Below are positions 26,831 through 32,877 of a DNA stretch of 56,101 nucleotides, one piece after another. The first letter of the stretch is position 1. Every line of letters starts with the position of its first letter. The DNA is from Chloroflexota bacterium. GTDB taxonomy: Bacteria > Chloroflexota > Dehalococcoidia > UBA2979. The stretch is from the NCBI GenBank assembly GCA_947470025.1, contig CANIRU010000004.1, forward strand, positions 1-56,101, in the 5' to 3' direction. The notes beneath the pieces were generated by a model. It saw only the letters and a program-made list of their open reading frames with translations, was not told the DNA's origin and searched no databases. The translations under genes and the position numbers were made by a program.

Positions 26831-27265
26831 CTACTTCTTCTCTCGCTCCCAGAGCGTCTCGTAGCCCTCGCCGCCGCGGATCGCCGCGAGGATGTCGGCA
26901 CGCTCGAGGCGCTGGCCGTCGCGGAACGCAGAGTCGGCGGCGCGCCTCGACGGTTCGCCGCCGATGTCGGCGACGCGGTCTTCGATGAACGACCACACGC
27001 CCAGCTCGCGCATCACCGCGATCGGGCGCGGCCACTGGAAGACGGTGATCTGCTCCGGCGGCGGCACGTCGGGGCGCTCTTTGCGAAGGAAGCGATAGCG
27101 CTCCTCGGCGGAGGTGACCGGCGGGACCATGCTGATGTACGGACGCCCGTCCGCATCGGGACGCGTGTCGACGAGCAGACGCTGCTCGATCATCGCGAAG
27201 CGGACGACGAAGACGTCCGCTTCCGCGATCACGCGCCGCATGGCCTCGATGTCGATGTCCACCAT
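26831..27265 (-). CDS. Hypothetical protein, 144 residues
   Basis: I do not recognise a family with confidence. The protein is soluble, with no signal or membrane segment. It is compact and mixed alpha/beta: MVDIDIEAMRRVIAEADVFVV forms a likely helix-strand, VFQWPRPIAVMRELGVW a second helix, and the C-terminus is charged (LWEREKK). The coding bias is normal and the gene is well separated, so it is likely real. The ATG at 27265 has a TAGACT box 7 nt upstream and no Shine-Dalgarno site, suggesting a leaderless message. Confidence 0.75.
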   Translation of the reverse strand: MVDIDIEAMRRVIAEADVFVVRFAMIEQRLLVDTRPDADGRPYISMVPPVTSAEERYRFLRKERPDVPPPEQITVFQWPRPIAVMRELGVWSFIEDRVADIGGEPSRRAADSAFRDGQRLERADILAAIRGGEGYETLWEREKK

Positions 27266-27272
27266 GCCGGAC

Positions 27273-27278
27273 AGTCTA
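27273..27278 (-). promoter_or_regulatory. -10 box for a leaderless gene
   Basis: Minus-strand TAGACT at 27278-27273 ends 7 nt before the ATG at 27265. No ribosome-binding site lies between. Confidence 0.45.
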
Positions 27279-27308
27279 GCGCAGCACGACCCCCGGGCGG
27301 TCGGGGCG

Positions 27309-28097
27309 CTAGCCCACCTGATACGTGCGATCGAGGTAGGGAATGTGGATGAGCCCGGCCATCTGCATCCCGAGCACCATCAGCACGATGCCTCCGGCGC
27401 GCGTCAGCACGTCCCCTTGCCCTGCCAGCAGCTCACCGAGCAGTCCCGCCGAGGCACCCGCGATCGCGAACACGAGGGTGAACCCGACGACGAACGCGAC
27501 CGCGTGGCCCATCACGTGGATCCGACTGCGCCGCGCATCGCCGGTCTGTCCGAGCACCGCCTCGCCAGCGATGTTCACGAGGTAGGCCGGCACCAGCGGC
27601 AACACGCACGGCGAGAGGAACGACACCACGCCGCCGAAGAACGCGACTCCCGGTCCGAACCAGCCGCTGACGCTGCCGCTCAGTTGCTCCTCGGCGGTCG
27701 CCGTGCTCGAAAAGATGAAGCCAAGGCCCTGGAAGTACGCGTTGAGTCGAGTGAACTCGCCGAGGAACATGAGCGCGCCGACGAGGATGAAGAACGCGCC
27801 GCTCGCGATCATCAGCGCGGGGAGGTACGGGTTCAGCCGTCTCATCCTCGGCGAGAGCCAGCCGAAGGCGGCACCAAACGCGAGGAACCAGACGCCGAGG
27901 CCGAGCGAGTAGCACGTGAGCAGGAGCGCACCCTGCAGCGCCTGCCCGGACGCCGCCGCCAGCGTCAGCACGACACCGAGGATCGGCCCGATGCACGGCG
28001 ACCACGCGAGCGAGAACGCCGCGCCAATCACGAACGACCGAGGAAGCCCCTCCGCCACGAGGCGACGTAACCCCCGCGCGGGCGTGGCGCCAGTCAT
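27309..28097 (-). CDS. CcdA-type membrane thiol reductase, circularly permuted
   Basis: CcdA passes electrons through the membrane to external thioredoxin-like proteins for cytochrome c maturation. It uses six helices built as two three-helix halves, each with one redox Cys. In ordinary CcdA the half with FLSPCVLPLVPAYL comes first and the half with GWTPCIGP second. Here the order is reversed: SLAWSPCIGPILG (Cys35) opens the 262-residue protein and SFLSPCVLPLVPAYL (Cys164) follows after a polar linker. The N-terminus is Arg-rich, consistent with a cytoplasmic start, which the swapped order requires. Both Cys residues are kept, so function is plausible. No thioredoxin or cytochrome-assembly gene is adjacent. 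Confidence 0.85.
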   Translation of the reverse strand: MTGATPARGLRRLVAEGLPRSFVIGAAFSLAWSPCIGPILGVVLTLAAASGQALQGALLLTCYSLGLGVWFLAFGAAFGWLSPRMRRLNPYLPALMIASGAFFILVGALMFLGEFTRLNAYFQGLGFIFSSTATAEEQLSGSVSGWFGPGVAFFGGVVSFLSPCVLPLVPAYLVNIAGEAVLGQTGDARRSRIHVMGHAVAFVVGFTLVFAIAGASAGLLGELLAGQGDVLTRAGGIVLMVLGMQMAGLIHIPYLDRTYQVG

Positions 28098-28114: not shown

Positions 28115-28342
28115 CTACCCGTCGATCCCGAGGAGACGACGGCGGGCGGCGTCGTACTGCTCCTTGGCGCGAGCCTCTCGGTTCAACAGGCCCTTGATCT
28201 GCTCGGGCGGCAGTCGGTTGCCCTCGAGCAGCAGCGAGTGCACGCCGGCCAGGTGCTTCTGCCACTGGTCGTAGGCGTCGCGATACGCCCGCTTCGGATC
28301 GGCGCTCGCGGGAACCTCGGTCGGTTCGGGTTCGTCCACCAT
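28115..28342 (-). CDS. Small conserved-looking helical protein
   Basis: This 75-residue protein has an acidic Pro-rich start followed by two amphipathic helices (YRDAYDQWQKHLAGVHSLLL and REARAKEQYDAARRRLLG). I recognise no family. It is supported as a gene by its position 17 bp before ccdA, by its helical composition and by a TACACT box 6 nt upstream of the ATG at 28342. It may be the first gene of a small operon with the permuted CcdA. Confidence 0.7.
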   Translation of the reverse strand: MVDEPEPTEVPASADPKRAYRDAYDQWQKHLAGVHSLLLEGNRLPPEQIKGLLNREARAKEQYDAARRRLLGIDG

Positions 28343-32131: not shown

Positions 32132-32674
32132 TCAGCCCGCCGAAGCGCTTCGTGCGAGCACGGTCTGCAACATGGCATCACCGACGGTCAAGTAGATCTC
32201 GCCCCCGGAACGCGCCAGTGAGAACCGCATGCGTCGCTCCAATCGCGCGACGAACTGCGCGATCCACGCGCGGTCCAGCGCGAAGACTTCGAGCTTCTCG
32301 GCGCGATAGATCTTCGCAGACGCAAGCTTGACGGCCCATTGCTCAGGATCCCTGTGCGTGTACACGGCAACGCGCGGAGCAGCCTTGCTCGCGCGATGTA
32401 ATCGCTCGGGCTCGGGCAATCCGATGTCGATCCACACCTGCAGCGCGCCCGTGAGATCGCGAACGGCGATCGCGGGATCGCCGGGATCCGACAAGCCCTT
32501 GGAGAAGGCGATGCCTTCGGTGCACTCGAGGCAATACGCAATCACACGAGTGACCAGATAGTCCGCCGTCTCGCTGGGATGCTGCGCAACGCGCAGGTTC
32601 AGCGTCTCGTACACCGCGCGATCGGAATCGGCGAGCTCGATGTCGAAGGTGTAGATCGTCGCGCCGAGCGCCAT
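32132..32674 (-). CDS. yaeQ: YaeQ family protein
   Basis: This 180-residue protein matches E. coli YaeQ in its opening (MALGATIYTFDIELADSDR), in RVAQHPSETADYLVTRVIAYC, in EGIAFSKGL and in LQVWIDIGLPEPERLHRASK. YaeQ has a restriction-endonuclease-like fold, but its role is unsettled; an early report linked it to RfaH-like antitermination. The family is mainly proteobacterial, so its presence inside a tRNA-rich accessory pocket suggests horizontal gain. The ATG at 32674 sets the canonical N-terminus; longer frames run through the tRNA remnant. Confidence 0.93.
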   Translation of the reverse strand: MALGATIYTFDIELADSDRAVYETLNLRVAQHPSETADYLVTRVIAYCLECTEGIAFSKGLSDPGDPAIAVRDLTGALQVWIDIGLPEPERLHRASKAAPRVAVYTHRDPEQWAVKLASAKIYRAEKLEVFALDRAWIAQFVARLERRMRFSLARSGGEIYLTVGDAMLQTVLARSASAG

Positions 32675-32691
32675 GGGGTGCCAAATCTCGG

Positions 32692-32714
32692 AAAGGCCCG
32701 CGTCAGGCGGGCTT
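32692..32714 (-). terminator. Terminator-like hairpin after tRNA remnant
   Basis: GCCCGC/GCGGGC (6 bp, 5-nt loop) followed on the minus strand by CTTTCC. It sits between the tRNA-Gly remnant and yaeQ, in the place where the intact tRNA genes also have terminators. Confidence 0.5.
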
Positions 32715-32734
32715 CGTGCTCTATCCGGGGATAC

Positions 32735-32779
32735 AGCGGGAGACCGGATTCGAACCGGCGACCCCCTGCTTGGGAAGTG
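32735..32779 (-). pseudogene. tRNA-Gly(CCC) 3'-half remnant
   Basis: From the anticodon loop TTCCCAA (anticodon CCC, 32776-32770) to the discriminator U at 32735, the 3' half is intact: variable loop, T-arm GCCGG-TTCGAAT-CCGGT and acceptor strand CTCCCGC. The 5' half does not pair: no GCGGGAG acceptor strand exists upstream, and the D-arm and anticodon stem mismatch. No CCA is encoded. A 3' tRNA half of this kind is what tRNA-targeted integrative elements leave behind. Confidence 0.6.
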
Positions 32780-32877
32780 CATGTTCCAAATCGCAGCCCA
32801 CGCGCACGGTACCAGCCGACAATCACACGGTTCGGAGGAGTGACCTCCAACACGTGATCCTAGGATCATCCCAAATA

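Follow-up and report, generated by a model that had tools for sequence, protein, structure and literature searches.

Within a 56,101-nucleotide stretch of DNA from a member of the Dehalococcoidia (hereafter the window), we identified a gene for a CcdA-type membrane protein whose two three-helix halves are reversed in sequence relative to the CcdA family. It is very probable that the encoded protein functions as a CcdA-type transmembrane carrier of reductant and that its gene was naturally circularly permuted in place; electron transfer itself is inferred and has not been shown. A preliminary description of this DNA had recognized the reversed halves and an uninterrupted frame with its own start and stop. 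Both points are borne out, and the strand, which it did not give, is minus: translation of positions 27309 to 28097 on that strand yields a single unbroken frame of 262 amino acids, in which an N-terminal tail is followed by the WSPC-IGPILG half (Cys35), a polar linker, the LSPC-VLPLVPAYL half (Cys164), and a short tail. The gene (order TM4-5-6 then TM1-2-3, called type I here), its parts, and its two conserved neighbors are as follows; helix borders were estimated from the sequence.

27309..28097, minus strand: permuted ccdA gene, type I order, 262 amino acids, ATG at 28097, TAG at 27311-27309
28035..28097, minus strand: new N-terminal tail, residues 1-21, Arg-rich, predicted cytoplasmic, equivalent to the downstream end of the normal TM3-TM4 loop
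27756..28034, minus strand: TM4-5-6 half (B half), residues 22-114
27993..27995, minus strand: Cys35 codon in the WSPC-IGP motif, normally the second active-site cysteine, in TM4
27648..27755, minus strand: acidic linker from ancestral C terminus to ancestral N terminus, residues 115-150, predicted extracytoplasmic
27345..27647, minus strand: TM1-2-3 half (A half), residues 151-251
27606..27608, minus strand: Cys164 codon in the LSPC-VLPLVP motif, normally the first active-site cysteine, in TM1
27312..27344, minus strand: new C-terminal tail IPYLDRTYQVG, predicted cytoplasmic, equivalent to the upstream end of the normal TM3-TM4 loop
28115..28342, minus strand: upstream neighbor, soluble protein of 75 amino acids without a Pfam match, conserved
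26831..27265, minus strand: downstream neighbor, protein of 144 amino acids without a Pfam match, conserved

Antisense to permuted ccdA, an open frame of 318 codons (27114-28070, plus strand) would encode a hydrophilic product rich in Arg, Glu, and His and most likely merely reflects high G+C codon bias. Elsewhere in the window, positions 32132-32869 (minus strand) encode a YaeQ-family protein (PF07152; E value, 5e-54).

The reversed order was recovered with profiles trained only on the halves of normal-order CcdA genes. The TM4-6 half-HMM scored 120 bits on residues 16 to 125 of the permuted protein and the TM1-3 half-HMM scored 125 bits on residues 149 to 261, while the crossed pairing gave no more than 6 bits. 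Pfam likewise returned two split matches, with DsbD_TM best on the second half and DsbD_2 best on the first; positions 7 to 103 of DsbD_TM matched the downstream half and positions 128 to 192 the upstream half, and the PF02683 match (E value, 8e-16) lay above the curated cutoff. The sole sequence match in the PDB was 5VKV, the solved CcdA of Thermus, which has the normal order and aligned in two crossed pieces. One cysteine with flanking prolines in each half (S-P-C35-I-G-P and S-P-C164-V-L-P) is invariant in 19 relatives. The protein thus satisfies two requirements for membership in the CcdA/DsbD_TM family, homology of both three-helix halves and a proline-flanked active-site cysteine in each, but it lacks the linear order of TM1-3 followed by TM4-6; because the order is reversed, we class it as a circularly permuted variant, not as an ordinary member. 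The claim of a natural circular permutation would have been undermined had the halves matched the family in normal order in a profile alignment, and it survives that comparison.

The source is a metagenome-assembled genome of 152 contigs and 80% completeness, from which an artefact of assembly, binning, or sequencing that joined two genes or fragments in the wrong order might have arisen. We regard such an artefact as having almost no chance of being the explanation. Among the 36 genomes of the window's Dehalococcoidia family (f1) that were searched, its own included, 32 contained one continuous full-length match that crossed the junction of the halves without a stop codon, at identities of 92% down to 35%, and these genomes represented all 17 genera; the match was cut by a contig end in one further genome and absent from three. 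Records deposited separately (L031-L049) contain this continuous frame as well, the neighboring genes are conserved, and dN/dS was 0.02 to 0.25 in eight close pairs of permuted ccdA genes, demonstrating purifying selection. Family-wide conservation and synteny therefore rule out both an assembly artefact and a gene fusion; the two joined genes or sequencing error that the preliminary description had named as a possible refutation are excluded by the continuous matches, and the order that it had proposed to look for in related genomes proved to be fixed in the lineage. In the Pfam search of the f1 genomes, every DsbD_TM match fell inside permuted ccdA, in reversed order, and no second, normal-order CcdA was found elsewhere in the window's own genome by protein search or by the Pfam profile. 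The permuted gene is hence the only profile-detectable CcdA/DsbD_TM gene of the family; because the genomes are incomplete, a missed copy in any single one is not excluded.

Direct evidence that the order of ccdA changed at one locus came from the comparison of gene order between f1 and a second family, f25. In f1, the gene for the 75-amino-acid protein is followed by ccdA, the gene for the 144-amino-acid protein, and then mostly a Thr aldolase gene and a DUF3108 lipoprotein gene. At two f25 loci (L114 and L192), a normal-order CcdA is flanked by these same f1-type neighbors (75-amino-acid protein, 144-amino-acid protein, Thr aldolase, and DUF3108), and the halves of the permuted CcdA are 46 to 50% identical to those of the normal-order CcdA in the genome that carries L114. 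Since f25 has a normal-order CcdA at the same locus, the swap in f1 happened in place. The preliminary description said nothing of this f25 gene. The link between f1 and f25 rests on synteny; protein trees did not recover f25 as a supported sister of f1. More widely, the 75-amino-acid gene lies upstream of type I ccdA in f1 and f66 and of normal-order ccdA in f25 and f16, and the 144-amino-acid gene lies downstream of ccdA in f1 (permuted) and f25 (normal order). These two proteins (28115-28342 and 26831-27265, both minus strand) flank ccdA in several Dehalococcoidia families regardless of order, and it is possible that they are functional partners of CcdA.

The junction retains traces of both ancestral ends. 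The type I linker, LNAYFQGLGF...EEQLSG...GWFGPGVAFFGG, resembles the normal C-terminal tail (FNSYFDHFGRL), a spacer, and the normal N-terminal head (GLFGPFVAFLAG) of the f25 protein at L114, and the sequences at the new ends of the chain (IPYLDRTYQ and PRSFVIG) correspond to the opposite ends of the normal TM3-TM4 loop. The criteria for a natural permutation are met: an unpermuted orthologue at the same locus, joined old termini, and new termini within one former loop. Most of the f16 and f50 genes compared, as well as one of the two normal-order f25 genes, have a long, Gly-rich loop at this position, and the spacing between the A and B halves is 138 to 169 in long-loop normal-order genes versus about 124 elsewhere; a loop of this kind may have eased the cut. 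In the proposed course of events, the outward-facing C and N termini of the ancestor would have been joined through the acidic extracytoplasmic linker, and the chain would have been reopened in the cytoplasmic TM3-TM4 loop, leaving both new termini in the cytoplasm. We infer that this came about by tandem duplication and trimming, which predicts a linker with recognizable C-terminal and N-terminal segments, as found here. Fission of ccdA into two half-genes and their refusion in reverse order is not excluded. In its favor, each half is a structural repeat that might fold on its own as a separate chain, and a tandem-duplicate intermediate was not seen; no duplicated, partly trimmed, or half-length form turned up among about 240 loci read, a non-exhaustive sample. 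We nevertheless judge fission and refusion unlikely, given that half-length or split CcdA genes were likewise not seen at these loci and that the linker holds both original terminal segments in the order of a tandem junction, an order that fusion could also give.

In normal CcdA, the six helices leave both termini on the outside, and a cut in a cytoplasmic loop therefore places both new ends inside. Charge counts support this topology. In 42 nonredundant type I sequences, there were 1.69 Lys plus Arg residues per 10 amino acids in loops predicted to be inside and 0.47 in those predicted to be outside; the corresponding values for normal-order genes were 1.73 and 0.72. The similar bias in the two sets implies that individual helices keep their orientation. 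In the same type I sequences, the N-terminal tail had 1.76 Lys plus Arg per 10 amino acids versus 0.38 in the linker between TM6 and TM1, in agreement with the cytoplasmic N terminus proposed in the preliminary description. Unchanged helix orientation with both new termini in the cytoplasm is thus supported, and TM1 entering from the outside and TM4 from the inside accords with prediction, on positive-inside statistics from these 42 sequences alone. AlphaFold2 and Foldseek were applied to type I and to the type II order described below, and the models were too weak to test the fold. For the permuted protein, modeling from shallow alignments reached a pLDDT of 68 and a pTM of 0.66, and 5VKV was ranked only seventh (TM score, 0.37) by Foldseek, which matches structures in chain order. 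For these reasons, the CcdA fold, with its inverted repeats and O-shaped scaffold, lacks independent confirmation.

The likeliest role of the permuted protein is the CcdA role, the delivery of electrons supplied by cytoplasmic thioredoxin to thioredoxin-like proteins outside the cytoplasm, which is inferred in the absence of an adjacent partner gene. Electrons from thioredoxin would pass onto the Cys35/Cys164 pair in two central helices and would then go outward to TlpA/CcmG-like thioredoxins serving system I cytochrome c maturation. No redox partner gene lies beside permuted ccdA; the neighbors are the 75- and 144-amino-acid proteins of unknown function, Thr aldolase, DUF3108, and SNase. Because the locus has no thioredoxin or cytochrome gene, the partners were inferred from the genome. 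CcmE (system I) was present in 12 of 14 f1 genomes, several redoxins were found per f1 genome, and the window's own genome encodes a TlpA-like thioredoxin that has a CGPC motif and a hydrophobic anchor at its N terminus. ResB (system II) was absent from all 22 f1 genomes searched for it, and cytochrome maturation by system II is not supported as the client. The lack of a redox partner gene at the locus and of experimental support for the function would also fit a permuted paralogue that is no longer a CcdA and has lost its role or taken on a new one, such as metal or sulfur transport in the LysE superfamily. Such a change of role seems to us quite improbable: both active-site Cys-Pro motifs are invariant, the gene is the sole DsbD_TM gene in f1 genomes, it occupies the locus of a normal-order CcdA, and most f1 genomes have system I cytochrome maturation.

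A survey of 294 Dehalococcoidia genomes, in which counts by match pattern are lower bounds, showed that the type I order is not confined to f1. It was also found in f66 (six genomes), f31 (one genome, G065), and f50, a mixed family in which genome G102 has type I and G143 the normal order. In addition, a second permutation, type II (TM2-3-4-5-6-1), has TM1, the SPCVLP helix, moved to the C terminus (loci L054, L056, L066, L072, L078, L079, L085, L091, L102, L111, L112, L178-L182, and part of L207-L232). Type II was present in at least 20 genomes of f20 by match pattern, several of which were checked in full, in f5 and in the Chloroflexota families f107, f108, f137, and f147, whose sequences were read directly, in Trueperaceae (Deinococcota), and, as continuous matches, in at least 17 of 148 Vulcanimicrobiota genomes. 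The cut points of both types lie in cytoplasmic loops, TM3-TM4 for type I and TM1-TM2 for type II. The type II proteins of f137 and f147 (L212 and L214) carry about 80 to 100 extra, largely hydrophobic residues between TM3 and TM4. One Vulcanimicrobiota type II ccdA (G691:C26:18559-19301) is split over two frames and appears to be a broken extra copy.

Trees built from sequences put back in normal order required three changes for type I and three or four for type II. One origin for type II was rejected by the AU test (P = 4e-8). For type I, the three further families outside f1 amount to two further events on the tree, one of which comes from the single f31 genome, and a single origin was rejected only marginally (P = 0.033), so that this question is left open. 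It remains conceivable, if somewhat doubtful, that all type I genes stem from one permutation and that the nested genes of normal order result from reversion or transfer. In favor of this, every type I gene found belongs to the class Dehalococcoidia, and a single clade was rejected only marginally. Against it, type I genes of f50 and f66 form a clade that joins normal-order genes of f16 and f50 (support, 100/95), and both types in this group have the same 75-amino-acid upstream neighbor. We think it probable that CcdA underwent several independent in-place permutations, each by sealing of the outer termini and reopening of a cytoplasmic loop, with its function retained; repeated permutation at two cut points had not been part of the preliminary description.

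Compared with normal CcdA (5VKV, Thermus thermophilus) and the DsbD transmembrane domain (PF02683), the permuted protein has homologous halves, both Cys-Pro motifs, and six predicted helices in the same predicted orientation; it differs in placing TM4-6 before TM1-3, in its new TM6-TM1 linker, and in having both termini predicted to be cytoplasmic instead of outside. Few circular permutations have been claimed for helical membrane proteins, whereas they are well documented in soluble ones. One review states that they are not observed in membrane proteins (PMC7162841), and the relation between VKOR and DsbB, with helix order CDAB versus ABCD, was reported as the first (PMC4555120). These two are likewise thiol-redox proteins with membrane helices that differ by circular permutation; however, they are two anciently diverged families of very low similarity with one inferred event, whereas the CcdA proteins are orthologues with clear similarity and conserved neighbors, permuted more than once and at two cut points. 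In the BART fold, a repeat swap between Mem_trans and SBF_like (PMC8396727) inverted the protein's orientation and distinguishes entire families; in CcdA, charge counts indicate unchanged orientation, and the swap lies between neighboring families of one class. The DsbD family (TC 5.A.1) of the LysE superfamily similarly consists of two three-helix repeats from an intragenic duplication, as described in PMC4608589, in passages that present only the tandem 3+3 arrangement; permutation is not mentioned in that text. No description of a permuted CcdA or DsbD was found in the open-access full-text literature, to which the search was limited and which lacks the original report of the CcdA structure; within that scope, we concur with the preliminary description that the arrangement is undescribed. 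Permutation of a membrane protein has precedents; same-locus orthologues that differ by permutation, together with repeated events, are a notable novelty.

If repeated permutation in place is confirmed, CcdA would provide a natural permutation series of a helical membrane protein between orthologues. The system allows tests of how much the insertion order of helices matters for folding and topology, of whether permutation must keep the parity between N-out/C-out and N-in/C-in, and of whether the inverted repeats are interchangeable in the proposed elevator movement, a mechanism that has been postulated for CcdA and is cited in PMC7329351. Annotation pipelines give permuted proteins weak split matches, here two partial DsbD_TM matches, and permuted homologues of other pseudo-symmetric transporters may for this reason be overlooked.
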